From Aureococcus anophagefferens (Eukaryota; Sar; Pelagophyceae; Pelagomonadales; Pelagomonadaceae): a stretch of DNA of 64,000 bases. The stretch's first letter is position 1; every line of letters begins with the position of its first letter. This document shows, in pieces, positions 6,102 to 54,800 of the stretch. The notes beneath the pieces are model-generated. The model saw nothing but the letters and a program-made list of their open reading frames with translations, was not told the origin of the DNA and ran no database searches. The stretch is from NCBI RefSeq assembly GCF_000186865.1, contig NW_008705563.1, forward strand, positions 200,816 to 264,815. The letters are read 5' to 3'. Both the position numbers and the translations under genes were made by a program.

Positions 6102-7012
6102 CGTCCAGCTTCGCGCGCGCCCGGTCGAGGATGGACCGGAGGCCGTCGGCGGACGCGTCGAGGCGCGCCTCGACGGCCGCGAGGAAGTCGACCTCGCCGC
6201 AGGCTTTGCGCGTCGGCGCCGCGCGGCGCGCGTCCGCGGGCGCGTCGCAGTCGATGGTCGCGCCGTGGTCCGCGAGCGTCGCGCTCGCCAGGGACAGGAT
6301 CTCCGACTGGGCCGCGTGCAGCTTGAGGTCGCGCTGCCACCTGGGCAGGACAAGAGAGCGAAATTCCCAACTTCAAAGGCTCCTATCTCGGCCATTTTCC
6401 ACTCGTTTCGGCTGATTTTTGGACGAGCGATCATCTCTCGGAACGGCCGCGCGTGGATGCTTTTTCCAGAACGCGCGCGCGCGGAACACTCACATTGAAG
6501 CGACGTTGAATCACCCTTTTGCTGCCCTGGCTGCCACTGCTTCGACTTCGTCTTGGGCAGGTCCGCGAGCTCCTCGGGCTCCTCGTCGCGGGGGCGGTCG
6601 TGCCAATCGCGCGCCGCGCGCCGCTGCTTCCGCGCGTAGCGCACGCAGGCGTCGCGCACGCGCAGCGCGTCGGCCTTGCGCCGCGCGGCCGCGGCCTCGG
6701 CCTCGTCGTCGCCCGCGGCGCGGAGCGCGCGCATGTGGGCCGCGGCCCGGGCGCAGCGCTCCCGGGGCCCGGGGGGCAGGGGCCGGTGGCGCGCGGCGCG
6801 CTGCGTCTCGCGCGCCTCCTCGAGCATGGCGTTCCACTTGCCCGTGACGGAGCTCGCGAACTCGTGGACCTACCGGGGAGCGTGGTTCCATCGGTGTACA
6901 CACACGCCGCGACGCCGCCGCGCGCGGGCGTCGACCCGTCGACGACGGCCTCCCGCTCCCGCATGAGCCAGTCGCCCTCGGGCACGTCGACGCGGAGGGC
7001 GACGGCGGCCAT
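6094..7012 (-). CDS. Unrecognised basic helical protein; introner-containing gene
   Basis: Reconstructed exons: 7012-6902, 6869-6538 and 6340-6094, ending at a TAA. The long intron 6537-6341 is a family 1 introner flanked by GTGGCAGC; removing it restores an open frame through K-Q-W-Q-R-D. The first junction is uncertain. Frames only connect if the 32 nt at 6901-6870, which begin GT and end AG, are removed, so it may be a tiny intron or a sequence error. The protein (about 229 residues) is rich in Arg, Ala and Glu and looks helical. No family is recognised. The last 8 nt overlap the convergent Tic22-like gene. Confidence 0.6.
6341..6537 (+). mobile_element. Introner family 1, copy 1 (intron in gene 6094-7012)
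   Basis: A 197-nt intron on the minus-strand gene. The host reads GTGGCAGC at the donor and CTGCCCAG|GTGGCAGC at the acceptor, so an 8-bp target duplication supplies the GT. The element lies with its GCGAAATTCCC end first on the plus strand, that is, reversed relative to the gene. Ends CTGGGCAG/CTGCCC form terminal inverted repeats. Confidence 0.9.
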
Positions 7013-7094
7013 CTTCTGACCACCGTGGGGCCGGCGTGGGCAGCCTTAACTGAATCGGCACCATCGACAAAGTGACTTGTAGATGCCGCCTTGT

Positions 7095-7237
7095 CTAGCA
7101 GCCCCGCTCGCGAGCCATTCGAAGCGCCTCCTCGCCGCCGCCCTGACGCTCGCGTCCACAGCCTAGCCTAGCAGCCCAATCGCAAGCCATTCGAAAACAA
7201 TGCGCCTCCTCGCCGCCGCCCTGACGCTCGCGTCCAC
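7095..7237 (+). repeat. Tandem duplication covering the 5' end of the secreted-protein gene
   Basis: 7095-7159 and 7168-7237 are near-identical, both running from CTAGCAGCCC through GCCATTCGAA to CGCTCGCGTCCAC. The second copy carries a small insertion (AACAAT) that creates the start codon of the gene at 7200. The first copy lacks any ATG. Confidence 0.9.
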
Positions 7238-7805
7238 GCATGCCGTGCATGACATCGTGGACCTCTATGCCAAGCCGGACACGAGCATGCGAACGCAGCT
7301 CGGCGCGCATTTCCAGGACGGTCATCCCGTCAACGCGCTCGTCGTGTTCCACCTCGAGGGCTGCGTCTTCTGCGAGATCACCATGGGCACCATGCTCTAC
7401 GATACGACCCACGACGGCGCTCTGAACGCGACGGGCATCCAGCCCTTCAAGCTGCTCGTCGACGCCGAGGGCACGCCGAACGGCACCTTCACGTTCTGCA
7501 GCGGCTCCGCCGACTGCGTCGCGCAGTCGAAGAAAATCCTCGGCGTCGACCCCGCGGCGCTCGCGTCCTTCCCGACGACCTACTACTACGACGCGGGAGG
7601 CGCCGCGAGCGACGTGTCCGACGCGAAGTGCGGCATCGCCGTGCGCCGCGACGGCCCGGCGGGCTGCGCGCCGGCGACGGCCGCGGCGTGCGCGCCCGCG
7701 GCCAACGACCTGAGCAACTGGGTCTGCAACGCGGCGACGAAGCACGCGGCGACGGACTGCGCCGCGGCGTCGCCCGCCTGGGAGCGGTGCGCGACGAAAA
7801 ATTAG
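7200..7805 (+). CDS. Secreted Cys-containing protein, possibly thioredoxin-like
   Basis: 201 residues. Residues 1-15 (MRLLAAALTLASTHA) are a clear signal peptide. At about residues 48-60 the segment VVFHLEGCVFCEI has a hydrophobic strand followed by C-x-x-C, as in the active site of thioredoxin-fold oxidoreductases. Further Cys pairs occur in the C-terminal 70 residues. The role, a secreted or ER thiol oxidoreductase, is an inference from that motif alone; the rest of the fold is not recognised. Its 5' end is tandemly duplicated (7095-7237). It converges on the sulfate-nucleotide transporter gene, with a 25-bp gap. Confidence 0.7.
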   Translation: MRLLAAALTLASTHAVHDIVDLYAKPDTSMRTQLGAHFQDGHPVNALVVFHLEGCVFCEITMGTMLYDTTHDGALNATGIQPFKLLVDAEGTPNGTFTFCSGSADCVAQSKKILGVDPAALASFPTTYYYDAGGAASDVSDAKCGIAVRRDGPAGCAPATAAACAPAANDLSNWVCNAATKHAATDCAAASPAWERCATKN

Positions 7806-7830
7806 CGCGCCGCCCGCGCTAACGTCGCCC

Positions 7831-9291: not shown

Positions 9292-9471
9292 GGGCGACGA
9301 CGGCGCCGCCGCCGAGGCGCGACGCGTGGGGAGGACGGCCCCGCGACGCTCGACGACGAGGACGCGAGTGCGTGTCTCGAGCCGAGGCAAGGTTGCGGAG
9401 CTGAAGTTTGGGCTCCCGATGATGCAGGGGGGATGCAGTGGGTTATGATGGGGCTGCTCGAGCCTCCCTGA

Positions 9472-11103: not shown

Positions 11104-11195
11104 AGCTCGTGCTTACTTTTTCAAGAAACCTCGCCGGCGGACGTCGAGTGGACAAGGGCTGCCCGGGCAGAAAGCACCACTCCTCGTGCGGGAGC

Positions 11196-13500: not shown

Positions 13501-13532
13501 CTTCGAACTCCCCCCAACGCCCCTATTAATCG

Positions 13533-13622
13533 TGACAGGTCAGGAATCGCCGGGCCCAAGGGGATCTTCAAGTGAAGATCCCCTTGCCGGGCCGGCCAGC
13601 GATTCTTGCACTGGCCTTGATC
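13533..13622. repeat. Long imperfect inverted repeat (hairpin)
   Basis: The centre at 13557-13586 is a near-perfect palindrome, with 14-nt arms CAAGGGGATCTTCA / TGAAGATCCCCTTG and a 2-nt loop. The stem continues outward through GGGCC and GAATCGC / GCGATTC and, less perfectly, GGTCAG / CTGGCC. It sits 40-120 nt after the hotdog gene and just before the PAS gene. Confidence 0.85.
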
Positions 13623-13701
13623 TTGAAGCCCATTGAAATTCGTACGCTTCATTCTCAAGCTCCGAGGATCATCGACGAGCGGCTGCCCCGTGCCACAGAC
13701 A

Positions 13702-14498: not shown

Positions 14499-14501
14499 GT
14501 A

Positions 14502-15825
14502 TCACCCCGCGGCGCGGAGGAGCGCGAAGCCGCGGCGCGTCGCGCGGCCGCCGACGGCGAGCGGCCGGCGGCCGGGCCGAACCGGCGCCGGCGGCGCCGC
14601 GGGCACCGCCGGCGCCGCGGACCGCGCGAAGGCGTCGAGGACGGCGCCCGTCGCCGGGTCCCGGGCGCCGCGCTTCCAGCGCGCGCGCTGCCGCGCCTGC
14701 CGCTTCCGCCAGCGCGCGTCGTCGGCCGCCTCGACGTCGTCCTCGTCCCACTGGAAGACGAGGGAGCCGCGGTGGTCGAAGAGCGAGTCCGCGATGCTCA
14801 GGCCGTCGTCGTCGCGCTCGCCTGTGAGGAATTAGACCACTGGTTTGGGTGGTCCTGACCAAACTTTGAAATTCTCTAGCTCGATCAAATCGAAGTCGAT
14901 TTGGTTGATTTTTGGACGAATCGATTGCTTTTGTCGAGTTCTCGAAGCACAGCCGAAGAGCTCGCGTCGAAACTGTCGCATATGCGCACATTGAAGTCGG
15001 ATTGAATATTTGAATTCCACACAGGCGCTCGCTCGGCGACGCGAGCGACGCGCCGCGGCTCCGCGGCGGCTCGAAGCGGCCGTCGTCGCGGTCCGCGATG
15101 GGCGCGGGCGCGCGCCGGTCCGCGGCGAGGCGGTCCGCCGCGGCGCGCGACGCGCGCGCCTCGTCCTCGGCGCCCGCGAGCGCCGCGCGGAGCGCCGCGG
15201 CCTCCGCCGCCGGGTCCGGCGGGTCCGGCGGCGCCGCGCCGTCGTCGTCGTCGTCCGGCGCCGCCGCCGCGTCGTCGTCCGCCGCGTCGCCGTCGTGGCC
15301 GTTGAAGGCCGCGCGCATGCCCGGGGAGAAGTTGCCCTCCGTCGGCGGCTCCCACTGGACGACGAGCGACTCGCGGTGCGCGTAGTAGTGCTCCTGCGTC
15401 TCGGGGTCCAAAACGCGGTGCCAGCCGTCGCCGACGTCCGCGCCCCGGGGCGGCGCCGGCGCGTCGGCGGGCGGCGCGTCGGCGGCCGCGTCGATGGCGC
15501 CGTCCTCGGCCGGCGACTCGTAGCCCGGTGGCCGCTCCCACGTCGTCTCCTCCGTCCCTCGGTGAGCGTAGTAGACGTCGTCGCCCGACGTCACCTTGGC
15601 CCAGCCGCTCCGCGGCTTCGCCCAGGACGTCTCGTGGGTCTCGGCGTGGGCGTAGTAGGTCTCGCCCGTCGCCTCGTCGACGACGGCGTGCCAGCCGGGC
15701 GCGAGGCCGTCGTCCGCGGGCGGCTGCCACTGGGTCTCGCCGCTGGCCTCGTGGACGTAGAAGTCGACGCCGGACTCGCGGTGGTGGTGGCGCGTCCAGC
15801 CGGCTGGGAGCGTCGCGTCGGCCAT
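14502..15825 (-). CDS. WW-domain repeat protein
   Basis: Exons 15825-15033 and 14821-14502 give 370 residues. At least four WW domains stand in tandem in the first ~190 residues, with signatures such as LPAGWTRHHHRESGVDFYVH...TQWQPP, YYAHAETHETSWAKP, YYAHRGTEETTWERP and HYYAHRESLVVQWEPP. A helical Ala/Asp-rich region follows, and exon 2 carries a fifth WW-like stretch (LFDHRGSLVFQWDED). WW domains bind Pro-rich peptides, so this is a scaffold or adaptor. The introner 14822-15032 separates the acidic linker from the last part. If the internal GTGG donor were used instead of the GC at 15032, four residues would be added in frame. Confidence 0.85.
14822..15032 (-). mobile_element. Introner family 2, copy 1 (intron in WW gene)
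   Basis: A 211-nt interval. On the gene strand the target duplication GCGAGCGC is followed by CTGTGTGGAATTC; the other end is CCTCACAG|GCGAGCGC. The terminal inverted repeat is CTGTGTGGAATT/AATTCCTCACAG. Exact excision needs a GC donor in the duplication; an internal GTGG donor at 15020 also keeps frame. Confidence 0.88.
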
Positions 15826-21355: not shown

Positions 21356-24300
21356 ATGGAGGAGGAGGACGAGGACGACGGCGAGGACCGCGGCCGGACG
21401 GCGCCGCGAAACGCGTCCCAGCCGCGGTCGCGGAGCGTCGGTCCCATGGCGGCGCCCGACGAGCCGGAGGCCGAGAGCACCGACGACCGCGAGGCCTACA
21501 AGAGCTCCGGCGTGTCGACGGCGCGGCGGGACCTGGACCAGATCCCGCGGTCGCAGCGGCTCCAGAAGCGCCAGAAGTCGCCCATCGGGCTGAGCCTCGT
21601 GCAGCTCGAGGAGATCGGTCTATTGGACTACGACGAGGACGAGAGGCCCCGGTCGGACGACGCGCCCGACGCCGCGCCCGAGTCCGCCGCGCCGGCGGCG
21701 CCGGAGCCGCCACAGGCCGACGACGCGCCGCCGACGTCCGTGTCGGCGCCGGCGTCGCCGAAGCGCCACGCCTCCGGCTCGTCCGACGACGCGGCCGACG
21801 AGTCCGCCGCCTCTCGCCGCCGCGACATGGACCGGCGGTCGCGGACCGTGCGCCTCGAGACCCGCAGCCGCGAGCCCGCCGACGCGCCGGGCAAGCAGCG
21901 AACCAACGGCCACCGCTCTTCCAAAGCTTCGTCGAGCTTCGTCGCGCAGGACAAGCGGCGCGCGCGGCCCCGGTCCGCGGTGCCGCGCGAGCGGGGCAAG
22001 GCGGGTCCGCGGCCCCAGTCCGCGTACCCGCGCGTGCTGCGCCCCGAGGGCTGGGCCGCGCCCGCCAAGGCGCTGGGCGCCGCGGGCCCGTCGAGCGACC
22101 TCGACGACATCGTCGAGCACGACGACGACGACGGCGAGCTCGACGCGTTCGAGGGGCCGCACGAGACGCTGGAGCCGAGCGACCGCGACTCGTCGCGCGA
22201 GCGGCCCCGGGCGTCGGAGCTGCTGAGCTCGGACCACGCGGCGCGCTTCTACCGGGACCGCGGCGACGGCCCGGACCTGGCGGCGCCCGTCTTCGAGCCC
22301 GACGGCCGCGCGGCGTCGACGCGCGGCGGCGCGGCGAGCCCCGGCCGCCGCGGCCGCCGCGCGCCGGAGATCTCCTTCGCCGCGGCGCCGCCGGGCCGTT
22401 TCGCGGACGGCGGCGACGGGATCATCCTCGACGGCGACAACCGGCCGCGCCACCCCGCGGCGCCGCGGCCGGGGCGGCCGCGCATCGCGCGGCTCGAGGG
22501 CCACCTCCGCGAGCTCGTGCTCCGGCGCCGCGCGTCGACGGGCCGCACGCTGACGCAGATCTTCGCCCACTTCGACCGGCGCGTGCGCAAGTGCTTCGAC
22601 GCGCGGGATCTGCTCGAGGGTTTGGTGGATTTGGGCGTCGGCGCGACGCTGGGCGACGCAAGGGCCTTGGTGCGCCGGTTCTGCCGCGACGCGCCCGACG
22701 ACGCGTCCCAGCTCGCGGTGCACCTCGGCGATTTTGCCGTGTTCGTCGACGACCCGGACCACGACGCCTTCGAGCGCGACGTCTGCGAGGCCGTGGCGAA
22801 GCGGTTGCTCCTGTTGCCGCCGTCGGCGCCCGCGCCGCCGGCGTCGCCCGACGGCGGCGCCGGCGGCGACCCGGACGGCCCGCGGCCCGAGTCGTCGCAG
22901 AAGGCCGCCGCGCGTGCCCTGCGGGCGGCCTTTGGGGACGAGCCCCGCGTGAGCCGCCGCGCCTTCGCGCGGGGTTTGAGGGCCGTCGGGCTCGAGGCGC
23001 TCTCCGACGGCGACGTGCGGCGGCTCGTCGCGCGCTTCGACACGGAGCACGACGGCCGCTGCTCCGCGGCGCGCTTCGCCAAGATGGTGCGCCGGTCGCC
23101 GGAGTGGCGCGAGAACGCGTGGCTGCGGCGCGTGCGGTTGGCGGCCGCGCGCGAGGCGGACGTCGCGTGCGACGCGGCGCGAAGGTGCGGCGGCCGCTGG
23201 GCCAACGGTTTGGACGAGGCGCTCGTCGAGGCCTGCCGCACGCTGGGGCTCCGCGTCTTCACGGACGCGGACCTCGCGTGGATCGCGCTCGACGCGCTCG
23301 AGGCGCCGCTGCCGACGGGCTGAGTCCCGTGTGGAACTCAACCGCTGGTTCGGGGGGTCCCCGCCCAACTTCAGAACTCTCTAGCTCAATCACATCGAAG
23401 TCGATTCGGCTGATTTTTGGACGAATCGATCGCTCTCGTCGAGTTCTCGAAGCACGGCCGAAGAGTCCGGCGCAATCCGTTCAATTACGCGCACATTGAA
23501 GTCGGGTCGAAGATGTGAGTTCCACGCAGGCTGGGTCGAGGCGCGCGGCGCGCGCGGCCGCGACTTCTACCACCACCTGCGGAGCGGCGTCTCCGTCTGG
23601 GAGCGGCCCCTCCTGGCCGAGTTCGCCCACGCGGCCATGGACCACCAGCGGCGCAAGGCGCGGCGCCGCCGCCGCCTCCCGGACGACGACGACGACGGCC
23701 CGCCGGCGGGCGACGACGACCGCGGGGGCCTCCCGGGCGAGCCCTACGACGACGTGGACGTCCGCGACGACGACGACGACGACGACGACGCGTCCGAGGC
23801 GCCCGCCGTCGAGGTGTCGCGCTTCGCGGCCGCCCACCGGCGGCCCGTGTCCGCGTCGCGCGTCCGCGGCCGCGCGGCACTCGAACCTTCGATCCGACTT
23901 CAACGTGCGCGTCATTGGACGGACCGGACGCTTCGGTCGTGCTTCGAGAACGCGACGAGAGCCATCGATTCGTCCAAAGATCAGCCGGATCGACGTCGAT
24001 TCGATCGAGATGGAGCATTGCAAAGTTCGGTCGGGACGTCCCAGCTCACCGGTCGTCGATGTCCGCGCAGGTCCACGACCGCCGCGGCGAGTACTCCGGC
24101 GGCCGCGCGGAGTACGTGTCCGCGCGGCACCAGCCGGCCGCGCGGCGGCCGAGCTCGGCGACGGCGACGCTGACGAACCGGGCGCGCCAGGGCGGCGACG
24201 GCGACGCCGCGGCGCGCGGCGGCGGCGGCCGCGGCCGCGGCGACGACGACGCCTACGGCTCGCCGGACGACGACGACGTCGCCGAGGACGACGACGACGG

Positions 24301-25152: not shown

Positions 25153-27967
25153 ATGGCGAGTTCGTCGTCCGGGCCGCCGTGGCGGACGGCCCTCCGGTCG
25201 GCCGACCTGGCCCTCGAGACGGCGCTGAGCCTCGTCCGCGACGGCGACGTCGACGCGGGCGCGCTGCGGGCCGCCTGCGACGGCCTCGGGGAGAAGCTCG
25301 AGCGCATCGAGGCCGCGGCGCGGAACCGGGCGGCCCGCGGGGCTCCGTCCCCGGCCAGGCCGGCGCCGGCGGAACCCCAGCGCGACGACCTCGACTCGTC
25401 GATCCGCGACCTCGGCCTGGACCTGGACCGGCCGGAGTCGCCCGACGGCGCGACGGAGACGGCCATCGTGCCCTTCGACGCGCCGGGCGCGCCCGGCGGG
25501 TCCGGTGCCAAGGTCCACCCCGCGGGCCCCGCGGCCGCCAAGTACTCGCCGCGCGGCGACAAAACCACGAAGATGAGCGACAAGAACAAAAAGCTCTGGG
25601 GCAAGGTGAAACAGAAGGTCCACGACGAGTTCAGCACGGGGTCGTCCACCGAAAAGGCGCTCGCGGCCGTGCTCATCGTCGACAAGCCCGAGGGCGACCA
25701 CGGCACGCGGCACCGGCGGTCGACGCACCGGCGCGTCACGGAGCGGGAGCTGGCCGACGACCGGTCCAGCGTCGCGTTCCAGTCGAAGATCAAGGTCATG
25801 ATGCTGCTGCGCAAAATCAAGAAGGGCGCGTCCGAGGAGGCGAAGGACGACGAGCTTCACCCGCAGAAGCAGGGCGCGCTGACGTCGTTCCGGACCTACC
25901 GGGACTACGACGGCGACGGCGGCGGCGACGCCCGGAACCTGTCGTCGCGGAGCCGCGCGCACCGGAGCCGTTCCGCCGCGGCCTGGGACCTCCTGCGGGA
26001 CCCGGGGTCCTGGCCGCGGCGGTGCCGGCGCCACTTCCGGGATTTGTACTACGACCTGCCGGAGGTGCCGGACATCGCCGTGACGCCCGCGGGCACGCTG
26101 GACCACAACATGCTGACGAGCGCGGGCGGCCACACGCTCGACGAGACGTCGAACGCGTTGGCGATCATCCTGAACCTGCCGGGCGTCATGCGGCAGAACC
26201 GGTGGCCGCAGGTTTTGATGCTGTCGCACGCGGGCTTCTGCCAGGTCTGGAGCCTGTTCATCATCTTCCTCGTGCTCTGCCAGGCGATCTTCGTCCCCGT
26301 GGAGGCGACCTTCGACGATGTTTTGGTCTTCAAGGGCTGGGTCGAGTGGCTGTCGACGGCGATGTTCGCGTTCGACTTTTTTCTCCAGTTCTGCTTCGCG
26401 GGCGTCACGGAGCACGGCAAGGTCATCGTGTCCGGGCGCGTCATCGCCGAGCGCTACATCATGTCCAAGTGGTTCTACCTGGATTTGATCTCCTGCATCC
26501 CGCTGGACATGGTGCTGAACTCGATGCATTTGGAGGCGACGGACAAGATCAGCGACAACACGGGCCTCATCAAGGCGCTGAAGCTCCTGCGGCTGTTCCG
26601 GCTGTCGAAGATCATGAAGACCATGGAGCGGCGGACCCAGGGCGGCGTCCAGTTCACGAAGCTGCTCTTCGGCGTGCTCCTGTCCGTGCACTGGATCGCG
26701 TGCGGGTGGAAGGGCGTCGACGACTTCTGGCGCTGCGGCGAGGGCAACGCCTACGCCTGGGACGCGCCCCTCCAGGAGGAGGAGAAGCGCTACCTGGGGA
26801 AGCGCTACCTCAACGGCAAGTGCAAGAACGCGCGCTTCGTCGTCGCGTACCCGGACTGCGTGCACCAGGCGTGCCTCTCCGTCGCGGGCGACGGCCGCGC
26901 GGTGACGACGAACGAGCAGATCTACTTTTCGATTATTTTCATTTATGGGAGCATCATGCAGGCGACGATCTTCGGCAAGATGGCGGGGTTGCTGCACCGC
27001 CTCGCGGAGCAGACGCAGGCGTACGAGACGAAGATGATCACGATATCCGCGCGGCTCAAGCACCTGGGCCTCGACGAGGAGCTGAGCGAGCGCATCATGC
27101 GCTACTACGAGACGCTCTGGGAGACGCAGCACATGACGACGCCGTCGTCGCTCGACTTCTTCCGCGAGCTCACGCCGCGGCTCCAATTGGACGCGCGGCT
27201 CGCGCTCTACGCGAACATGATCCGCCAGATCCCCTTCATGCGCAAGATCTCGCGGTCCATGATGGAGCACCTCATCCAGTCCATGCGGCCCGAGATCTTC
27301 ATGGAGTCGGAGGCCGTCATGCGGCGCAAGGACATCGGCGACTGGATGCTGTTCATAGAGCAGGGCAGCACAAGAGAGCGAAATTCCCAACTTCAAAGGC
27401 TCATATCTCGGCCATTTTCCACTCGTTTCGGCTGATTTTTGGACGAGCGATCATCTCTCGCAACGGTCTCGAAGCGTGGATGTGTTCTTTGTAACGCGCG
27501 CGCGCGGAACACTCACGTTGAAGCGACGTTGAATCACTCTTGTGCTGCCCAGGTTCATAGAGCAGGGCACGCTCGCGGTGCTGGACCCCGCGAACCACGA
27601 CGCGTCGATCCTGAAGCTGCTCCACCCGGGCGACCACATCGGCGAGCGGGGGCTCGTCGACAACTCGCCGCGCAACGCGACGGTGCTCGCGCTCACGTGG
27701 ACGAACGTCAACGTGCTCACGCGCGGCGACTGGGAGATGACGTCGGCCGCGTTCCCCGAGGAGGCGCAGACCGTCCAGCGGTCCCTCTTCTCCCACGACA
27801 TCACGGCCTTCGGGGACCGGGACCAGGCGAACTGGGACCCGACGAAGCGCGGCTCCGTGCCGGACGTCATCGACGACGAGCAGCAACGGCACAAGTCCAC
27901 GCACACGACGCACATCGCCAAGCCGGGCGAGTCGTGGGCGCCCACGCGGCAATCCAGAGCCACCTGA
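25153..27967 (+). CDS. Cyclic-nucleotide-gated cation channel (CNG/HCN-like)
   Basis: Exons 25153-27350 and 27553-27967 give 870 residues. A long cytosolic N terminus precedes six membrane segments from about residue 360. The S4-like helix is KALKLLRLFRLSKIMKTMER. The pore region reads CLSVAGDGRAVTTNEQIYF (about 574-592), with GDG where potassium channels have GYG. An IFGKMAGLLHRL S6 end and a C-linker follow. The cyclic-nucleotide domain is split by the introner and joins as W-M-L-F-I-E-Q-G-T-L-A-V-L, then GERGLVDNSPRNATV, a phosphate-binding-cassette-like motif. It should conduct cations under cAMP or cGMP control. The ion preference is unclear because of the unusual filter. Confidence 0.85.
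27351..27552 (+). mobile_element. Introner family 1, copy 2 (intron in channel gene)
   Basis: 202 nt. Donor GTTCATAG after ATGCT; acceptor TGCTGCCCAG|GTTCATAG. The similarity of the flanks runs on past 8 bp, because the host happens to read AGCAGGGCA, like the element end. The element lies with the GCGAAATTCCC end first, in the same direction as the gene. Confidence 0.92.
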
Positions 27968-28935: not shown

Positions 28936-30086
28936 TCACGGGTGGTAGACGCCCGCGGCGTGGGACCGGCTCGACGACGGCGTCCGCGGCAGGGGCTCGC
29001 GGCCCGGCCGCGCGGGCGTCTCCACGTCGGCCGCCTCCTCGGCCTCCACTGTGTGGCGGTCGAGGTGCGAGTCGCTCGCGTGCGCGCTGAGCGCGGTCCG
29101 CGGGCCGAAGCGGAGCACGAAGAGGAGCGTGAGGACAGCGAAGACCGCGACAAAGTACATGGCGCCGCCCGCGGCGATGCCGACGGACGCCGCGACCCAC
29201 GTCGACGCGGCCGTCGTCAGGCCGTGGATCTGCTCGTGCTCCGGGCCGTCCGGGTCCAGCGGCGACCGCACCTTCATCTTCCAGATCAACCCCGCGCCGA
29301 GGAAGCCGACGCCCGAGGGGATCGCCGCGGCGACGCGCGAGCTGTCCCAGGACATGGGCCCGTCCTCGAAGGCGAAGATGGACGTGATCGTGAAGACGCA
29401 GGCGCCCAGCGCCACCAAAGCCATGGTCCGGATGCCCGCGGGCCGGTCCACGCGGCGCCGCTCGTAGCCGACGGTGCCGCCGCACGCGATCGCGAAGATG
29501 ATGCGCCGCCCCAGGTCGCACTCGCGCGGCGTCAGCATGAAGAGCGCGCCGTAGCGCACCTTCGTGCACCCGGGCACGTAGTGGCCGTTGCTGAACCTGG
29601 GCAGCAAAAGGGTGCGAAATTCCCAACTTCAAAGGCTCCTCTCTCGGCCGTTTTCCACTCGTTTCGGCTGATTCTTGGACGAGCGATCATCTCTCGGGAC
29701 GGTCTCGAAGCGTGGATGCTTTTTCCGGAACGCGCGCGCGCGGAACACTCACGTTGAAGCGACGTTGAATCACCCTTTTGCTGCCCTGTGCTGAACGGCG
29801 CGTCGTGCTTCGGGTAGATGGCGCGCGCCGCGTCCTCGTCGCACGGCGGCTCGAGCCAGGGACTAAAGACGACGACGACGCAGGCCACCGCGAAGAGCAA
29901 TACGGTAAACGTGTAGGCGAGGCGCTGCTGCCAGCCCGCCGACGACGAGAAGTACTCGCCGCCCTGGGCGAAGGGGATGGCCGGCATGAGCTTCGCGAAG
30001 GACTCCGTGCGGCTCGGGCGCCGCGCGTCGCGGCCCATGAGCGGCGGCTGCACGAGGCCGTAGCCCTCGGGGCCGCGGCGCGCCAT
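28936..30086 (-). CDS. MgtC/SapB family membrane protein
   Basis: Exons 30086-29797 and 29596-28936 give 316 residues. Exon 1 has a cytosolic N terminus and one membrane helix. Exon 2 carries the MgtC domain: RIIFAIACGGTVGYERRRVDRPAGIRTMALVALG, SRVAAAIPSGVGFLGAGLIWK and IHGLTTAASTWVAASVGIAAG, all typical of the family, followed by a Ser/Pro tail. MgtC proteins are best known in bacteria, linked to Mg2+ limitation and ATPase regulation; the algal role is unknown. A bacterial origin in the past is plausible, but base composition now matches the neighbours. Introner removal restores A-P-F-S-N-G-H-Y. Confidence 0.87.
29597..29796 (+). mobile_element. Introner family 1, copy 3 (intron in MgtC gene)
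   Basis: 200 nt. On the gene strand: GTTCAGCA donor duplication, CAGGGCAGCAAAAGGGTG end, ... CACCCTTTTGCTGCCCAG|GTTCAGCA. The 8-bp duplication is perfect (plus strand TGCTGAAC). The element is reversed relative to the gene. Confidence 0.95.
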
Positions 30087-33807: not shown

Positions 33808-35312
33808 CTACGTGATCCCCGCGTCGTAGTAGCCGCGCCACGGGTGCTTCGCGCTGAGGTCCTCGCGCATCCAGACGGTCGTGATCTCCTTGGTGCCGTT
33901 CGTCACGAGGCAGCCGCCGTGCTCCGTCGAGCCGTGGTCCATGAGGCCCGTGTCCGGGTCCTTGTAGGCGAAGAAGAGCGCGCCGCGCGCCTTCGGCGCG
34001 ACCTTGAGCCCCGCGTTGGGGAAGACCGTCGCGCCGCCGCCGCCCGGCGCGGTGCAGTAGTGGATCATCGTCGCGACGCGGCCGCCGCGCTTGTAGGGGT
34101 AGCGCCGGCAGACGCCGTCGCAGTGCGCGCGGTACTCGCCGGCCTCGGCGTAGCGGATGAAGTTGAGCGGCTCCGCGTGGGGCCCCGCGTCGACGTCGAG
34201 GCGCGCGGCCCGCCGCGCGAACGCGTGGGCCCGCGCCGCGAGGCGGTTCACGACGAAGCCCGGGTCCGCCGCGTCCCACTCGAGCATCGCGTTCCGCGAC
34301 CGCCGCACGGACCTGGGCAGCAAAAGAGTGATTCAACGTCGCTTCAACGTGAGTGTTCTGCGCGCGCGCGTTCCAGAACCAGCAACCACGCTTCGAGACC
34401 GTTCCGAGAGATGATCGCTCGTCCAAAAATCAGCCGAAACGAGTGGAAAACGGCCGAGATCGGAGCCTTTGAAGTTGGGAATTTCGCTCTCTTTTGCTGC
34501 CCTGGCACGGACAGGAGCGACGCCCGCCGCCCGGAGACGACGGCGTCGTGGAGCTCGGCCTCCTCCGCGGCCTCGCGCAGCGCGTCGCAGTCGTCGGCCG
34601 TCGTCCAGTCCGGCAGGAAGGCGACGTAGGGCGCCTCGCTCAGCACGTCGACGCGCCGCTTCGCGCCGTCCTCGAGGTACGACGTCCGCCGGAGGGGCCG
34701 CGACGCCGGCGTCGCGGACGCGCAGAGGTCGAAGAGCGCGCCCGCGCCCTCGAAGACGTGGCCGCCGTGGCCCGCGTAGTCCACGACGGTCCGGTGGCGC
34801 AGCTCGTCCGTGGCCCAGTCCACGAAGTCGCCGGACCGCACGCGGAAGACGGCCGTCGAGTTCGGTAGGAGGCGCGACGCGTTGCTCGCGTTCCCGGACC
34901 GGTGCGTCGCCGTGACGGTCAGCGGGCTCCCGTTCGTGAACGTCGCGTCGCCGCCAGTGGCGTCGCCGAGGACGTAGACGTCGCGCGCGTCGCCGCCGCG
35001 GAGCGCCACCGAGTCCTCGAGCGGCCGCGGCCGCTTCCTCGACCGCTCGCGCCAGCCGTAGACGTCGCCGTCGCGAAGCTCGACGACGTGCTCGCCGCCG
35101 GACGCGTTCAGCGTCGCGACGAGCGTGGCGTTGCCGCCGACGACGCGCAGGAGCTCGCGCCGCGTCGGGTAGGGGTTCACGAATGTGACGCCGCGGCGGA
35201 CCGTCGCCGGCGGCGCGGCGCTCAGCACGTAGGCGGCGAAGACGGGCACCGCGAGGACGAGCGGCAGGGCCAGCGCGCTCGACGGCTCCGCGCGTTCGCG
35301 GTCGCCGCTCAT
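33808..35312 (-). CDS. Prolyl 4-hydroxylase-type Fe(II)/2-oxoglutarate oxygenase
   Basis: Exons 35312-34513 and 34312-33808 give 434 residues. An N-terminal anchor (about 13-33) is followed by a lumenal region with several N-glycosylation sequons. The P4H domain has iron ligands H330-x-D332 (EYRAHCDGVC) and H398 (STEHGGCLV), and the 2-oxoglutarate lysine K408 (GTKEIT). It should hydroxylate proline in secretory proteins such as cell-wall glycoproteins. The introner lies before the catalytic core and its removal restores L-L-S-V-R-R. The start codon is 51 bp from that of the divergent GT11 gene, so they share a promoter. Confidence 0.88.
34313..34512 (-). mobile_element. Introner family 1, copy 4 (intron in P4H gene)
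   Basis: 200 nt with a perfect 8-bp duplication, GTCCGTGC on the gene strand. Acceptor CTGCCCAG|GTCCGTGC. The element is in the same orientation as the gene (GCGAAATTCCC end first on the minus strand). Confidence 0.95.
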
Positions 35313-37697: not shown

Positions 37698-39925
37698 ATG
37701 AACATGAACTTCAAGGAGATGCGCGCGCGGATGGCCGAGGCCGCGACCAAGGCCAAGGCCGAGGCCATGAAGCAGGCGGCCAAGGTCGAGACGCGCCTCA
37801 AGGACACGGAGCGGAACCGCGCGATGGTCGCGTCGTTCGTCGAGAAGGTCGGCGCGACGCTCGAGGAGCTCGTGGACGAGGGCGCGCCCCGCGAGGAGCG
37901 GAAGATCATCGACCTGACGTACGTGACGGACCGCTTCATCGCCATGGGCTTCCCCTGGGACGGGCGGTCGTCCGCGGGGTCGGCGGCGGCGCGGCAGACG
38001 GCGAACCCGATCAAGGCGGTCGCGGCGCACCTCCGGTCCTACCACGAGGGCCACTACATGGTGCTGAACGTGTCCGAGGAGCAGTACGACTACGGGACCT
38101 TCGACATGAACGTGCTGGAGTTCGAGTTCCCGGGGCACCCGGCGCCGCCCCTCGGCATGCTCTTCAAGATCTGCGCGTCGCTGGAGTCGTGGATCGCCGC
38201 GGACGCGGCCAACGTCGCCGCCGTGCACTGCCTCACGGGCCGGGGCCGCACGTCCGTGGTATTGGCGTGCGTGCTGGCCTGGCTGGGGGAGTTCGAGACG
38301 CCGCTCGCGGCGCTGAGGCACGTCGCGGACGCGCGGAAGGACGACGTCGAGCGGCTGACGATCCCGTCGCAGCGGCGCTACGTGCAGTACTTCTCCAACG
38401 TGCTCGACGGCGTCGCGCCGCGGTCCGAGCCCCTGCTTTTACGGCGGGCCATCATGCACGGCATCCCCAACTTCGCGGGCGACGCGCGGCGCGCGGGCTG
38501 CTGCCCGTACCTCCAGTTCTTCAAGGGCGGGCGGCTGGCCTACACGACGACGTGGGCCGGCGCGAAGGACGATTTGGCCGCCGACGGCGTGGGCGTGGGC
38601 GAGACCAAGGGGGGCGAGGAGCAAAGAAAGCCCGCGCGGCCCTGGGCGGGCCCCGCGGAGGGGAGCTTGGTGTTCCACGTCGACTGCGTCGTCCACGGCG
38701 ACCTGCTCGTGCGCTGCCGCCACCTCGACGAGCACGGCGGCCGCACGTCCATGTTCCGCGCGGCGCTCCACGTGGGCTTCGCGCCGACGGGCGTGCTGCG
38801 GCTGACGAAGGCGCAGCTCGGGGCAGGACAAGAGAGCGAAATTCCCAACTTCAAAGGCTCCTATCTCGGCCGTTTTCCACTCGTTTCGGCTGATTTTTGG
38901 ACGAGCGATCATCTCTTGGAACGGTCTCGACGCGTGGATGCTTTTTCCGGAACGCGCGCGCGCGGAACACTCACGTTGAAGCGACGTCGAATCTCTCTCG
39001 TCCCGCCCAGGCGCAGCTCGACGGCGCGTGCGGCGACGACCGCTTCGACGACGACTTCTTCGTCGACCTCATCTTCGCGCCGCTGGAGCGCGAGAACGAC
39101 GAGGACGGCGGAAACGACGCGCCGGGCGGCTCGGCCGCGGGCGCGGCGCAGGCGGGGCTGCGGGCCGAGGCCGCGCGCGAGACGTCCGACGCGGGCGGCT
39201 TCTCCCCGGCCTACGACGCGCTGCTCCACAAGGACTCGCTCTTCTGGCGCGACATCGAGGACCGGAAGACGCGCGCGCGGGGCCGGCGCGCGGCCGCGAA
39301 GAAGGCCGACGCGCCGAACGCGGCGTCGCAGGCCGCGGCGGCCGCCGTGCCCGCGCCGCCCGCCCGCGCGGCGCGCCGGGCGCGGCCCGAGGCGGCGGAC
39401 CCCATCTTCGCCATCGGTGGCGAGGACACGCCCGCCAAGGCGGCGCCGGTCGCGGACCTGCTGAGCGCGGACACGGACGACCTCGTGCGGCAGCTCGAGG
39501 ACGCGGACGCGCTTTTCGGCGGCGAAACGTCGCTCCTCGACCTGCACCACGCCGCGCCCGCGGGGGCGGACGACGTCTCCGCGCCGCCGCCGCCGGAACC
39601 GTCGCCGCCGCCGGAGCGCGCGGCGCCGGCGCCGGCGGACGACGTCCCGGCGCCGCCGCCCGCGGCCCCGGCGGCGGACGAGTTCCCGCCGGCCCCGGCG
39701 GACGAGTTGCCGCCGGCCCCGGCGGACGAGCTCCCGCCGGCGCCCCCGGCGGCGGCGCCCCCGGCCTCGCCGACGGACCTCCTGGCGGACCTCGAGAACG
39801 AGCTCGACTTCGTCGCGCCGGCGGCCGCCGGCGGCGACGCCGCGGCCGCGCCCGCCGGCGACGACGCCTTCGACCTCGACGACTTCGAGTCCTATCTCGA
39901 CACCCTGGGCACGGGGAGTAAATAG
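37698..39925 (+). CDS. PTEN-like phosphatase with C2 domain and Pro/Ala-rich tail
   Basis: Exons 37698-38810 and 39011-39925 give 675 residues. A Lys/Ala helix opens the protein. The phosphatase domain has LTYVTDRFIAMGFP (about 75-88), the active loop HCLTGRGRTS (177-186) and TIPSQRRYVQYFS, all close to PTEN/tensin-type enzymes. PTEN itself has two lysines in the loop; here they are Leu-Thr-Gly-Arg-like, so lipid specificity may differ. A C2-like domain follows and spans the introner (L-T-K-A-Q-L-D-G), ending near VDLIFAPLE. The last ~280 residues are Pro/Ala/Asp-rich, with repeated PPAPADE units. Probably a membrane-associated phosphoinositide or protein phosphatase. Confidence 0.87.
38811..39010 (+). 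mobile_element. Introner family 1, copy 5 (GC-AG intron in PTEN-like gene)
   Basis: 200 nt. The duplication is GCGCAGCT, so the donor is AAG|GC. There is no GT near the left junction that would keep frame. Acceptor CCGCCCAG|GCGCAGCT. Same direction as the gene. The acceptor end is somewhat diverged (GTCCCGCCCAG). Confidence 0.9.
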
Positions 39926-41821: not shown

Positions 41822-44200
41822 TCAACCTGTTTCGCGGCGGTTCGCGCACGCGGGGTCCGCGAGGGCCGCCGCGAGGCGCGCCGACGCCGCCGCGCCGTCG
41901 ACGGCGACGTGGCAGGCCGCCGCGTGGGCCGCGTCGAAGCGCACCGGCGACCGGCCCCGGAAGTCCGCCGGCCGGAGCGCGACGCCGCGCGAGAGCGCGA
42001 GCGCCGCGTAGGAGAACTGGCTCCGCGCGGCCACGAAGACGTCGGCGAAGGCGAAGTGGGCGAGGTCGTTGAAGGCGTCGTTGTCGATGACGACGGCGCT
42101 CGACGGGAAGCGGCTCGCCGCGTAGGCCGGCAGCGTCGACGCCGCGCCCGCCGCGTCCCGCAGGAAGTCGTGCCCCCGCTCGTCCGGCTGCGTCACGGAC
42201 GCGCCGAAGAGCACGACGTGGAGCGGCGTCGCCGACGCGTTGCGCAGGAGCTCCAGGGCGCGCGCGTAGTAGGCGTCGTCGAGGTTCAGCCGCGCGTGCT
42301 TCGCGTACGCGCGCCCGGGGAGGCCTGGGCAGCACAAGGGTGCGAAATTCCCAACTTCAAAGGCTCCTATCTCAGCCGTTTTCCACTCGTTTCGGCTCAT
42401 TTTTGGACGAGCGATCATCTCTCGGAGCGCTCTCGACGCGTGGATGCTTTTCCCGGACCGCGCTTGCGCGGAACACTCAAGTCGAAGCGAACTTGAATCG
42501 CTCTTTTCCTGCCCTGGGGCAAGCGGTCGCCGTTGCGCACGTGGACCGCGACGTTCGCGAAGCCGCCGCGGAAGCGGCCCAGCGCGTGCGCGGGCGCGGG
42601 CCGCACCGCCGCGGCGCGCAGGAGCGCCGCCCGGAAGAAGGCCGCCGTCGCCGAGAAGTCGTGGGACGCGAAGGGCGCGTCGCCCTCGCGCCGATTCGAG
42701 TTCGCGGCGCGGACCGAGACCACGGCCGCGGGCGAATCTCTCAAATCCCGCGCGATGGCCGCGCCGTGGGCCGCCCACCAGGCCTCGACGCCGCCGCGCC
42801 GCGCGGGGCCCGGCAGCGCCATTTCAAAACCGTCGGGCTCGAGGCAGCCCGCGGCCCGGAGGCGCTCGAGCGCCGTGCCGTTCGGCAGCGCGCCGTCGAG
42901 CCTGTGTGGATTCCAAATATTAAACCCGACTTCAATGTGCGCGTAGTCGAACGGTTTGGACCAAACTCTTTCGCTGTGCTTCGAGAACTCGACGAGAGCA
43001 ATCGATTCGTCCAAAAATCAGCCGAATCGACTTCGATTTGACCGAGATAGAGAGTTCTGAAGTTTGGTGGGGACCCCCCAAACCAGTGGGTGGAATCCAC
43101 ACAGCGTCGAGCCAGAGCAGGCCGTCGCTCGTGCGCTCGTCGATGCCGTAGCCCGCCCGCGTGCGGTAGAACGTGTGGCGGTCGAAGAGGAGCGTCGCGT
43201 TGAGCAGCGTGGCCGCGCGGAGGCACCCGTTGAGCACGGCGATTCGGAAGCCGAAGCCCGCGGGGTTCTTCAGCGAGCAGCGCAGGAGCCGGGCGACGCC
43301 GCAGCGCGGCGGCGCGGCCGGCGATAGAGCCGTGTCCTCGCCGGGCGCCGCGCAGCGCTCGTCGCGCCAGGCCGCCGGCGCCAGGAGCGCGAAGCCGGGC
43401 CGCGTGTAGACGTCGTCGAAGTGGCCCCGCGCGACGCGGAAGCGCTTCGCGAGCGCGTAGCCCCGCGCCCGGAGGTAGGCGCCGACGGCCTTGTCGTTGG
43501 CCTCGACGCTGACGACGTCGACCGTGACGTTGGGCAGCGTGCCCTTGAGGATCGCGAGCTCGTGGCCTTCCGCGTCGACGTTGAGCCAGTCGAGGCGGCG
43601 GCCGCCGAGCGCGGCCGCGCCCGTCGTGCAGCGCTTCGTCAGCCGGGCCACGCGCGACTTGTTCTTGAAGTTGCGCCAGCTCTTGTTGTCCGCGAGGACG
43701 CCGCTCCGCGTCGAGCCGCCGCGTTCGCCGCCGAATTCGGCCCACTCGACGGTCCGTTCCGCGTCGCTCAAGCACGCGGTCACGAGGGTGCAGTTGCGGC
43801 CGTAGGTCGCGTAGCCGCCGGCGTAGTGGGCGCTCGCCTCGACGCAGACGCCCGCGGACTCGACGCAGGCGTCGAGGAAGTAGGTGTTGGACGTGTGGAG
43901 CCAGTCGTTGCTCCCAAAGTCCGCGTACGCGATGGGCCGCCGGAGCCAGCGCAGGTGGTGGTCCCAGAGCCAGAGGTCCTGGCCGCCCTCCGACGGCGAG
44001 ATGGGCCGCCCGTCGGCCGCCGACGCGCCCCAGGCGAGCTTCTCGCCGAGCGTGCGCGCCTTGGAGACGCGCGACCGCCGCCGCAGCTCGCCGGCGCCCC
44101 AGCAGGGCTGGCGCACCGTCGACGACCGCAGCACGCGGCACCACGACGCCAGCGTCGTCGCCGACGCGAGCGGCAGCGCCGCCCACGACCAGCGCATCAT
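41822..44200 (-). CDS. FkbM methyltransferase fused to a fucosyltransferase-like domain
   Basis: Exons 44200-43113, 42901-42525 and 42324-41822 give 655 residues. After an N-terminal anchor, residues about 90-290 form an FkbM-type methyltransferase: an AdoMet region at YADFGSNDW (about 92-100), and WLNVDAEGHELAILKG (about 205-220). From about 320 a second domain resembles GT11/GT65-like fucosyltransferases: RIAVLNGCLRAATLLNATLLF, NVAVHVRNGD, then DLAHFAFADVFVAARSQFSYAA. Together they suggest one lumenal enzyme that O-methylates and glycosylates a glycan. The two introners fall inside the second domain. The first intron could instead use an internal GTGG donor, adding four residues. Confidence 0.82.
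42325..42524 (+). mobile_element. Introner family 1, copy 6 (GC-AG intron in FkbM fusion gene)
   Basis: 200 nt. On the gene strand the donor side reads C|GCTTGCCC and the acceptor side CTGCCCAG|GCCTCCCC. The two 8-mers match at 6 positions and both encode Arg-Leu-Pro in frame. No GT donor near the boundary keeps frame. Reversed relative to the gene. Confidence 0.88.
42902..43112 (+). mobile_element. Introner family 2, copy 4 (intron in FkbM fusion gene)
   Basis: 211 nt with a perfect duplication GCTCGACG on the gene strand, inverted-repeat ends CTGTGTGGATTCC / GGAATCCACACAG and the shared internal core. Exact excision needs a GC donor at 43112; an internal GTGG donor at 43100 is the alternative. 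Confidence 0.92.
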
Positions 44201-47746: not shown

Positions 47747-47807
47747 CTCTACGATGGCTGCCCCATGGCGCCTTGGAAGGGGAGGTGCACCTCCGACACG
47801 TTGACCG

Positions 47808-48003
47808 AACGTTTACCTTCCGGGGGGTCGGTGCGCGCAGTCGGCGCCCTCGGCGCCCTCGGCCATTTCGGACCCTCGGACGCTCGGCTCCCTCGGACGA
47901 GGGGAAAATCCCTCAGCCGAGGGCGTCGGACGAGGGGGCGGCGCCCTCGTCCCGAGGGCGCCGAGGGCGCCGAGGGCGCCACCGACCCCCCTCAACGTTT
48001 ACC
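47808..48003. mobile_element. MITE-like insertion with long inverted repeats
   Basis: AACGTTTACC occurs at 47808-47817 and again at 47994-48003 as a 10-bp direct repeat. Between them a ~176-bp segment has inverted ends, GGGGGGTCGGTG (47822-47833) against CACCGACCCCCC (47980-47991), and further inner complementarity (GGCGCCCTCGG / CCGAGGGCGCC). It has no coding capacity. The right repeat contains the stop codon of the acidic-protein gene. The layout is that of a nonautonomous DNA transposon. Confidence 0.8.
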
Positions 48004-49072: not shown

Positions 49073-49287
49073 GGCCGGGGAGCAGCCCGGCCGGCGCGTT
49101 CCAGCGCGAGGCGTCGACGGCGTTCAACGAAATGTTCAAGAAGCATTGCCTTCGAGAGAGTCTGGCCTCCTCCCGGCCGACGCTCGAGCTGCTCGAGCCG
49201 CGCGCGCTACACCGTCGTCTGCGGGCCGCGTCGCGCCGTCTGCGCCCCGCGCCGCGCCGTCCGCGCGCCGCGCCGCGCCGCCCCAAG

Positions 49288-50415: not shown

Positions 50416-50535
50416 AGCCTAGTTAGCCTAGTTATTCTCTCAGGCTGAATTCAACTTGTGGCCTCATAGTTCTCGAAATCGTCGGAACGGAACTTAGTCG
50501 AACGCCGGGCGGGCCCGGGAAGGGGCCGCGGAGCC

Positions 50536-51708: not shown

Positions 51709-51856
51709 GGTGGCGGGGCGGCGGGCGAGGTTGCACAGCGTCGGAATGCCCCAGTTCTCGAGCGCTTGCGGCACCATCGGCACCATCTCGGCACCGCTCG
51801 ACAACATGGGCCTTGGCGCCGGACGATGGTGATGCAGCCCATTTGAGTAGCCCATC

Positions 51857-54800
51857 ATGTATCGCGACTACCTGCCGGGCCTCATCATCGGCGCCTTCCT
51901 CGCCTTCTTCGGGCGGCTCCGGGCCCTGCACGACCACGCGCTCGCGAACGTGGAGGACCACCACGACTCGTCGTCGCGGAGCGCCGTCGCCGAGTCGCTG
52001 CGGCTCCACGCGGCGCAGCGGGTCGTCGCGACGCTGGACCCGGACCTGCCCTTCTTCGAGGCCTGCGCGCCGTCGCAGACGTGCGCGCGGAACCTGCACG
52101 AGCCCGCGCGCGACCGGCTTTTGGCGGACCCGCGCGACGGCGTCGCGGACCCGCTGCCGGAGTCGTGGCCCCGGGCCGCCTACGACCGCGCCGCCGCGCT
52201 GGACGCCGTGCGGTCGGGCGCCTGCGCGCCGAGCGCCGCCGTGCCGCGGGGCCTCGCGCGGCCGGGGACGCGGGACGACGCGCCGTGCGCGTACGTCTGG
52301 ACGGCCGAGGGCCGCCGCCGGCCGGCGGCGCCGGCGCCGGCGCCGCCGGCCGCGGGCCCCTTCGCCGAGCGCCTGCGCGACACCGTCGGCGCGGCGCTCG
52401 GCGCCGGCGCGTCGGCGCGCGTCTACTGGACCGTCGCCGACGCGAGCCGCGCGGCGGCCGTCGCCGAGTTCTTCCAGGCCTACGCGCGATTGGTCGCGCC
52501 GAACGAGGCGCCGGGCGTCGCCGCGGCGGCCGTCGCCGTGACCGTCGGCGTGGACGCGGCGAGCGCGCCGGGCCGCGTCGTCGTCGCCTGGCGGCCCGAG
52601 GGCGCCGCGGCCGCGGAGCTCTGCGAGCGGCGCGGCCGCTTCGGCGCGGCGTTCGCCGCGGACCGCGCGTTCGCGCGCGACGTCGCGCTGGCGACGGGCG
52701 GCGTCGACACGCAGCCGCCGGGCGACCGGGGCGTCCCGCCGGCGGGCCGCCGCGCCGAGCGGACGCAGCTCGGCGTCCAGGGCACGGGCGGCATCGACTA
52801 CCAGGGCTTCGTGCCGCCCAGGGCAGGACAAGGGTGATTCAACGTCGCTTCAACGTGAGTGTTCCGCGCGCGCGCGTTCCGGAAACAGCACCCACGCTTC
52901 GAGGGCGCTCCGAGAGATGATCGCTCGTCCAAAAATCAGCCGAAACGAGTGGAAACCGGCCGAGAGAGGAGCCTTTGAAGTTGGGAATTTCGCACTCTTG
53001 TCCTGCCCAGGTGCCGCCGCGCCTCGCGAAGCTCCAGACGGAGGCCGTCCAGGCCGAGCGCCGGGGGTCGGGCGACGCGCGCGTCAAGTTCGCCGCGCGG
53101 TCCGCGGGCGCCGGCGCCTGCCGCCACGCGGCGGCCTGGGCGACGGTCGCGGCGTTCCTATCCGCGCCCGCGGCGGACCCGTGGCGCGCCGCGGCGTTCC
53201 TCAAGGTCGACGCCGCCGCCTTCTTCGCCGCGCCGCCCCAGGGCCTCTTCGACGCGGCGCGCGGCGTCGACGGCCTCGTCGTCGCCGCGCGGTCGGGCGT
53301 CGACCCGCGGGGCGAGGCGCAGCGGAAGATCCGGCCCGAGCGCATCGGCGGCGCGGCGACGGCCTGCGTCGTCGCCTGCGAGCGCGGCGCGGCGGCGGCG
53401 GCGCGGGCCGCCGACGCGCTCGCGGCCGCGGCGGCGCGGCTCCTGCGCGACGTCGCCGTCGTCGCGGCCGCGGGCGACGACTGGCGGCCGGAGCTCAACC
53501 ACTCCGCGCGCGTCGCCGCGCTCGCCGCGGCCGCGGACGAGGACTCGTTATTGCGGTGCCTCGTCGCCGAAGGCGCGCGCGACGCCGACGCGCGGCGGCG
53601 CCGGGGCTGCGGCGACGGCGACCTCGCCGCGGCCGCGGCGCGCGCGGCGCTCGGCGCTTCGCCGCCGCGCGACGCCGTCCGCCTCCTCGACGCGGAGACG
53701 GTCGTGAGCCACGAGCACCCGGCCATCCTGAGCGGCTCCACGGTCGTCCACGTCCGCGGCGGCGACGACGACCTCGACGCGGCGGACGACGTCAAGGCCG
53801 GCGGCCGCGGCGGCGGCTCCGCGACGACGCCCTACGCGTCCATCGCGCGCGTCGCCAAGGAGCTCCAGCTCTGGGAGGGCGCCGACGACGGCTTCGGCGA
53901 CGCCTACTACGCCGTCGGGCGCCACCGGCGCTACGTCGCCGTCGAGGACAGCCTCTTCGCGACGCGGCCGCCGGCGCGGGAAACGGGGCGCCCGACTTCG
54001 AAGGCTCGGCCGGTTTCCGCTCGTTTCGGCCGATGGTTGGACGAGCGATCGTCCCTCGGAGCGGTCTCGGATGTTTCTTTCCTGGAACGCGCGCCCTTTG
54101 CACGTTGAAGCGACGTTGCGTCGCAGGCTGCCGCCGGACTTCCACGCGGGCGAGAAGCTCGCGCTCGTCGCGTTCAACCTGGCGCTCGCGGCGTACTTCA
54201 CGGGCCGCGTCGCCGTGCTGCCCGCGGGGCTCCACTTCGAGAAGTTCTACTATTTGTGGGAATTCGTCGACGTCGAGGCGTTCTTCGGGCCCCTGGGCGT
54301 CCAGTTCCGCGAGTCGAATTTCTTGAACCACCCGCGGCTCCAGGTCCGCGGCGCGGCGTCCATGGGCCGCGTGACCGTGCTCGGCGACGGGCGCGTCGCC
54401 GCGGCGGCCGTCGAGGACGTGGGCCGCGACTACGACGCGCGCGCGGCGCTGGGCGCCAGGTACTACGCCGCTACTGACCTCGGGCGGCGGCTCCCGTATC
54501 TGGTCGCGAACGAGGACCCGCGCGTCCGGGACGCGGACGTGCTCTACCTGGACATGGACGCGACGATGACGAACGCGCTAGTCTTCCCCGAGCGCCTCTG
54601 CTTCGTCAAGGGGCCCCAGAGCCGGAGCGGCCACGGCTGCCTCCGCGACGGCAAGGTCGAGGACTGGCTCGGCCTCTTCTACGACCTCGGCGCGTGGTGC
54701 TCCTTCGAGACGAAGACGCTCCGGGGCCTGAATCTGATCACGGCGTCCGACGACTGCGCCGCGAAGCGCGCCGAGGACGCGCGGCGGGGCCGGCTCGACC

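Follow-up and report, generated by a model that had tools for sequence, protein, structure and literature searches.

The stretch of DNA analysed here (the window) comprises 64,000 nucleotides of Aureococcus anophagefferens (contig NW_008705563.1, positions 200,816 to 264,815 of the forward strand), with a G+C content of about 71%. It contains 12 copies of two related elements with terminal inverted repeats (TIRs) and 8-bp target duplications. The putative introns that they form measure 163-211 nt and are spread over nine open reading frames, with two copies each in three of the frames; a first-pass annotation of the sequence had likewise counted nine host genes. The ends of family A read C[A/T]GGGCAG...CTGCCC[A/T]G and those of family B CTGTGTGG...CCACACAG, and a core is common to both. 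The elements are very probably introners, i.e. short, non-autonomous TIR DNA transposons that, judging from their sequence, act as spliceosomal introns with a donor taken from the target duplication, and whose distribution would be shaped by survival and by a bias towards genes. The copies are listed below, with fractions giving the matching positions of the two duplication copies.

6341..6537, minus strand: family A introner, interior antisense to the host; donor GTGGCAGC, acceptor CTGCCCAG, duplication 8/8
14822..15032, minus strand: family B introner; donor GCGAGCGC, acceptor CCTCACAG, 8/8; host with WW-like repeats (by eye)
23319..23529, plus strand: family B introner; donor GCTGAGTC, acceptor-side copy GCTGGGTC (7/8)
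23862..24070, plus strand: family B introner, GC-enriched; donor GTCCGCGG, acceptor-side copy GTCCACGA (6/8); open frame shared with 23319
27351..27552, plus strand: family A introner; donor GTTCATAG, 17-nt direct repeat GTTCATAGAGCAGGGCA; host an ion channel with a cyclic nucleotide (cNMP)-binding domain
29597..29796, minus strand: family A introner, interior antisense to the host; donor GTTCAGCA, 8/8; host MgtC-like (by eye)
34313..34512, minus strand: family A introner; donor GTCCGTGC, 8/8; host a 2-oxoglutarate (2OG)-Fe(II) oxygenase
38811..39010, plus strand: family A introner; donor GCGCAGCT, 8/8; host with a PTEN_C2 domain
42325..42524, minus strand: family A introner, interior antisense to the host; donor GCTTGCCC, acceptor-side copy GCCTCCCC (6/8)
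42902..43112, minus strand: family B introner; donor GCTCGACG, 8/8; open frame shared with 42325
52811..53010, plus strand: family A introner, interior antisense to the host; donor GTGCCGCC, 8/8
53964..54126, plus strand: family A introner, degenerate; donor GCGGCCGC, acceptor-side copy GCTGCCGC (7/8), acceptor CGTCGCAG; open frame shared with 52811

Read in the sense of the host, the acceptor end is CAG in 12/12 copies, and the putative intron starts with GT in six (6341, 23862, 27351, 29597, 34313 and 52811) and with GC in the other six (14822, 23319, 38811, 42325, 42902 and 53964), which bears out the claim of the first-pass annotation that all 12 duplications begin with GT or GC. Eleven of the 12 donor-side 8-mers that it listed were right; the 8-mer of the copy at 53964-54126 had been misplaced by 3 nt, and the donor of this copy is GCGGCCGC (7/8 against GCTGCCGC), not GCCGCCGG. 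Eight of the duplications are exact, two match at 7/8 positions (23319, 53964) and two at 6/8 (23862, 42325). An Rfam scan of the window at gathering scores gave no match. Three traits by which introners are recognized are found here: many similar introns at unrelated positions, target duplications together with TIRs and, as far as sequence can tell, one splice site carried by the element and the other co-opted from the duplication so that the mRNA would be unchanged.

Two features of the element ends are worth recording. At 27351-27552 the duplication reaches 17 nt (GTTCATAGAGCAGGGCA), owing to the sequence AGCAGGGCA at the start of the following exon, which is nearly identical to the first bases of the element itself; this long repeat reflects either chance or homology-assisted insertion. 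The element starts 2 nt past the 8-bp duplication. In four copies (window 23862-24070 and 53964-54126, L041:176-322 and L086:858-1058) the ends have drifted towards the high G+C content of the host; all four retain the GT or GC start and the terminal AG, and three of them also have diverged duplications.

Putative splice donors at the target duplications

In the proposed mechanism, insertion would duplicate 8 bp of the target, the element would bring its own 3' splice site as the terminal CAG, and exact removal would use as its donor the dinucleotide at the start of the upstream duplication copy. Insertions with a duplication starting with GT or GC (GY, where Y is a pyrimidine) in the gene sense would survive because splicing removes them exactly, whereas the majority of other insertions in genes would be lost, and an added bias to genes, through targeting or loss elsewhere, would be required.

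There is good support for a donor supplied by the duplication. In coding sequence (CDS), 20.4% of positions start a GY (25.1% in phase 0, 15.3% in phase 1 and 20.7% in phase 2), and at 20.4% the chance of finding it in 12/12 window copies is about 5e-9. The genome sampled comprises 49.05 Mb in 86 contigs, in which a 23-mer core has 3,442 matches with at most two mismatches. Genome-wide counts that include only exact matches to the consensus ends of family A yielded 663 copies ending in the consensus ...CTGCCCAG, which is followed by GT in 295, GC in 358 and another dinucleotide in 10 (GY 653/663), and 409 copies starting with the CTG-type CTGGGCAG..., preceded in 398 by RC (R, purine), i.e. 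by GY on the other strand. Altogether, 1,051 of the 1,072 consensus-ended copies (98.0%) have GY. The ten CAG-ended copies without it are at C4:1709906, C15:812377, C21:630682, C5:2383136, C8:1245373, C9:1024053, C10:1080552, C13:943116, C13:1294540 and C33:397985, and a further 11 are CTG-led.

The individual copies were placed in a sample consisting of the window, 20 tiles of 10 kb each selected by their position, eight pattern-search loci and 60 short loci, the latter being the surroundings of places on contigs C1 and C2 where the core matches exactly. A profile search of this sample found 101 copies, 83 of which were placed by script (8-bp duplication, at most one mismatch) and 13 more by hand from the element ends; five were left out, two cut by a locus edge and three degenerate. 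Coding calls relied on a codon model self-trained on open frames from the window and tiles, in which 94% of third positions are G or C. By this model, 74/83 script-placed copies lie in CDS, with their flanks in one phase after removal of the element and one duplication (L074 is counted among them after a 1-nt boundary correction). The nine non-assigned copies have a short flank (L076:15, L086:46), a neighbouring copy in the flank (two in L048, one each in L065 and L067), coding on unlike strands either side (L039) or a one-sided coding signal (L071); the ninth, L037, is discussed below. Likewise 12 of the 13 hand-placed copies are in CDS, and 13/13 have GY. No pattern guided the choice of sequence for the window and the 20 tiles, which together hold 20 copies; 19 were placed, all 19 in CDS, and the twentieth (L022) is degenerate.

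GY lies beside the acceptor end in 95/96 placed copies, and in 74/74 coding copies it is in the gene sense (GT in 32, GC in 42), with donor phases of 39/17/18 compared with 30.5/18.5/25.0 expected from GY supply. Among 25 diverged duplication pairs with 44 differences in total, position 1 shows none and position 2 shows five, all of them C/T. The only non-GY copy, L037:504-695, sits between flanks that both code on the opposite strand and hence in an unspliceable orientation. Its exact removal leaves the frame unrestored (-5 bits), and the best restoring GY-AG intron scores 51 bits with an AG 30 nt inside the element. This copy may represent inexact splicing or a damaged gene, and it fits the rule that exact removal requires GY.

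Reading through the element meets an in-frame stop or a frameshift in 73/74 coding copies, and after the predicted splicing 74/74 are open over 120+120 nt. The first-pass annotation had noted an open frame restored in every host, and this holds for 12/12 window copies, though by construction: removing the element and one duplication ensures restoration, so that the frame does not locate the donor, and frame restoration was rejected as donor proof.

Public proteins provide evidence of removal. With the element and one duplication taken out, the channel host at 27351 is 100% identical across the junction to P0113 (37 members, contig of 2,067 nt), and the oxygenase host at 34313 is 100% identical across its junction to P0119 (30 members, longest contig 1,677 nt). 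P0116 (A. anophagefferens, NCBI) and P0117 (91%) end in FIEQGSTRERNSQLQRLISRPFSTRFG, an exact match to the unspliced read-through at 27351 in the window; the same element is present at the same site in public A. anophagefferens sequence. Among named proteins, the nearest matches belong to A. anophagefferens (P0116, 99% over 58% of the searched stretch; P0120, 84% over 48%; P0003, 83% over 65% of the query), in keeping with an Aureococcus-like pelagophyte as host. As a side observation, P0116 and P0117 are public entries that end inside an introner, and the stored sequences hence read an unspliced intron.

An origin by reverse splicing, in which introns already present enter other transcripts, would also place copies nearly only in CDS and in the orientation that gives an acceptor, as is seen. 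It predicts, however, that a new copy retains the first 8 nt of the old intron, whereas these 8 nt agree with the exon downstream of the new site; the agreement is exact in 62/74 coding copies (12 differ). The target duplications led us to reject this route, which is extremely improbable.

Further observations concern the arrangement of single copies. Two loci hold paired introners about 50-60 nt apart with a very short exon between them (L048, 504-689 and 749-940; L065, 257-460 and 509-697), and L027:4719-4885, located in CDS with a GT donor, is a chimera whose left end (ctgggcagg) is of family A and whose right end (ccacacag) is of family B.

Strand, donor type and probable survival after splicing

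The first-pass annotation left open whether insertion prefers GY sites or only such insertions survive. A transposase with equivalent ends that preferred GY should leave RC equally frequent at the far end of the duplication. A palindromic GYNNNNRC preference of the transposase itself, merely exploited by splicing, has some points in its favour: 8-bp duplications and CAGGG-type ends, a trait of hAT-type miniature inverted-repeat transposable elements, are both found here and resemble the ends of hAT elements, and RC occupies duplication positions 7-8 in 24/74 coding copies compared with 16.9 expected (standard deviation 3.5; 32/1000 null draws as high). A symmetric enzyme nevertheless predicts as much RC as GY, and the counts are 24/74 and 74/74, with positions 3-8 near background. 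Family B is informative here, as its ends are nearly alike: its nine coding copies, the L027 chimera among them, have gene-sense GY in 9/9 and RC on the opposite side in 2/9, which indicates that GY follows the gene strand, as splicing demands. Nor does the preference give a reason for the excess of GT or for the depletion of rival upstream GY described below. hAT elements prefer GTNNNNAC targets; a comparable palindromic preference is not seen among the surviving copies, which would allow for a weak one. A search for hAT transposase (PF05699) gave no match and was uninformative, the control genomes being without a match as well.

A symmetric insertion preference was therefore rejected as the main cause for want of a strong RC excess, and a GY preference of the transposase is an unlikely source of the pattern. 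Survival after splicing accounts for GY better, in view of the strand rule, the over-use of GT and the rival-GY depletion, and preference may have a minor part.

The donor types can be compared with what the host DNA supplies. GC constitutes 78% and GT 22% of coding GY (a GC:GT supply of 3.6), and the share of GC donors is 57% in the sample (42/74) and 55% genome-wide among CAG-ended copies (358/653). GC donors are frequent because GC-rich coding DNA supplies mostly GC among GY; per available site, GT is favoured about 2.7-fold in the sample and 2.9-fold in the CAG-ended genome counts. It follows that the ratio of GT to GC donors is the dinucleotide supply multiplied by an approximately 2.7-fold GT advantage. 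The six GC-AG introns of the window, which the annotation had called far above the usual rate, are indeed so when set against most eukaryotes, but the GC share stays below what composition offers.

Rival GY dinucleotides are depleted in the 10 nt upstream of the donor (118 compared with 141.5 expected, standard deviation 8.2; 6/2000 draws as low). The evidence for an extended donor context is weak. Matches to a flanking context of seven positions average 2.64 at GC donors of the sample compared with 2.09 expected (3/2000 draws as high) and 1.81 at GT donors compared with 1.57 (252/2000 draws as high), with several contexts scored on the same 74 sites and no correction for multiple tests. A better flanking context that compensates for GC donors is regarded as unproven, since a purine at +3, the sole part tested genome-wide, shrank to 65%. 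A search for U1 (RF00003) was uninformative, the controls likewise lacking a match.

Location in genes and polarity of the ends

None of the 83 script-placed copies is clearly intergenic, and the non-coding share of the sampled DNA is 28-41% by two rough measures. Copies that escape the constraint amount to about 2.5% (21/1,072 non-GY, corrected for a 20% chance of GY). With GY at 20% and, for family A, a single usable orientation out of two, splicing would be possible for only about one in ten genic insertions, so that under uniform insertion non-coding copies should outnumber genic ones. The scarcity of unconstrained copies and the lack of any clearly intergenic one imply that genes are targeted or that the other copies are lost. 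Enrichment of introners in genes has been described in 161/175 genomes (PMC9860276).

The TIRs are about 14-16 nt long and pair in 66/74 predicted RNA folds (family A 58/65, family B 8/9). In 54 standard-ended family A copies the two ends match each other at position 9 in 46/54 (26.1 expected) and at position 11 in 42/54 (26.6 expected), which may in part be due to shared ancestry; the 0/54 identity at position 2 was set aside, as these copies had been chosen by their end letters. Family A ends are polarised, unlike the nearly symmetric ends of family B. In the host sense, CAG forms the acceptor end and mostly CAG or CGG the other. Both ends are switched in copies with an antisense interior: sense copies have mostly CAG or CGG...CAG, and antisense copies CTG...CTG or near forms. 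Two acceptor-competent ends occur in 0/73 script-placed family A copies and, on contigs C1 and C2, in none of the consensus copies listed, of which 44 are CTG-left and 90 CAG-right. A phylogeny of 68 family A interiors clusters the end types (8 parsimony switches, compared with a mean of 18.6 and a minimum of 12 under label shuffling), but does not separate the two types into clades of their own. The exact 23-mer core was not found in IMG/VR, a search outside which near records may fall.

These data bear on a further alternative, namely that insertion itself is coupled to transcription or splicing and polarised, the acceptor-side end being laid against GY in genes, so that the pattern is targeted, not selected, and unconstrained copies scarcely arise. 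The low share of unconstrained copies in DNA of which 28-41% lacks a coding signal, the absence of clearly intergenic copies and the lack of family A copies with two acceptor-competent ends would all fit with functionally polarised ends of this kind, between which the interior can face in either direction. On the other hand, known parts, namely targeting of genic chromatin combined with survival, account for these observations as well, GC donors are still under-used relative to their availability, and L037 sits in an unspliceable orientation within a coding frame. Coupled insertion thus appears improbable; if true, it would be a novelty for a transposon to have its choice of target tied to transcription or splicing.

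Several points weigh against survival of insertions with a duplication-derived donor. Survival alone does not explain the near-absence of copies outside genes, and a minor preference at insertion would be compatible with the slight surplus of RC at positions 7-8. P0113 and P0119 could stem from element-free alleles instead of RNA; they attest net removal and not the donor, because any cut within the duplication yields the same protein, and they cover two GT cases only and no GC donor. The half share of GC does not fit the canonical splicing motifs ascribed to A. anophagefferens introners (PMC7789003). The GY rule is broken in 21/1,072 consensus-ended copies, and 13 copies were placed by hand, judging the element ends by eye. 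Finally, the purine at +3 found at 33/42 GC donors in the sample falls to 233/358 genome-wide (65%; 57-60% expected), and at GT donors it stands at 81/295 (27%; 30-31% expected).

Known introners and the meaning of the donor rule

The mechanism is already known, and what is added here is quantitative: the strand-specific GY, the use of GT and GC per site, the depletion of rival donors, the polarised ends and the near-exclusive genic location. Aureococcus introners reportedly carry one splice site and co-opt the other from the duplication, in work of 2016 credited to Huff, Zilberman and Roy. As they are said to be, A. anophagefferens introners are short non-autonomous TIR transposons with target duplications, a co-opted splice site and perfect removal, from which nothing fundamental differs in the copies described here.

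The introners of Symbiodinium microadriaticum share the TIRs, the carried 3' splice site and the 5' splice site taken from the duplication, but their duplication is 4 bp long, compared with 8 bp in the window copies (PMC9860276). Family 4 of Aureococcus sp. has the genus name and the 8-bp duplication in common with the window copies, yet it carries both splice sites and adds 12 nt to the mRNA, whereas the window copies would add none (PMC9860276). In the same source, GC donors range from 0 to 50% across introner families. Amoebophrya introners are alike in having direct and inverted repeats, and the inverted repeats could fold and draw the splice sites near each other; their splice dinucleotides are highly variable, in contrast to GY-AG in 98% here (PMC7789003).

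The strand rule separates selection by splicing from target preference. With little U1 consensus beyond GY, the question arises how the spliceosome selects the correct GY, for which TIR pairing is a testable candidate; the putative U1 5' end of A. anophagefferens equals the consensus (PMC3033335). The same paper gives 39.6% GC-AG introns at a genomic G+C content of 69.5% and calls their origin an enigma, and its excerpted account of these introns makes no mention of introners; nor was any link between the Aureococcus GC-AG excess and introners found in the excerpts of open-licence papers. Sampling of donors from GC-rich coding DNA would offer an answer to this enigma.

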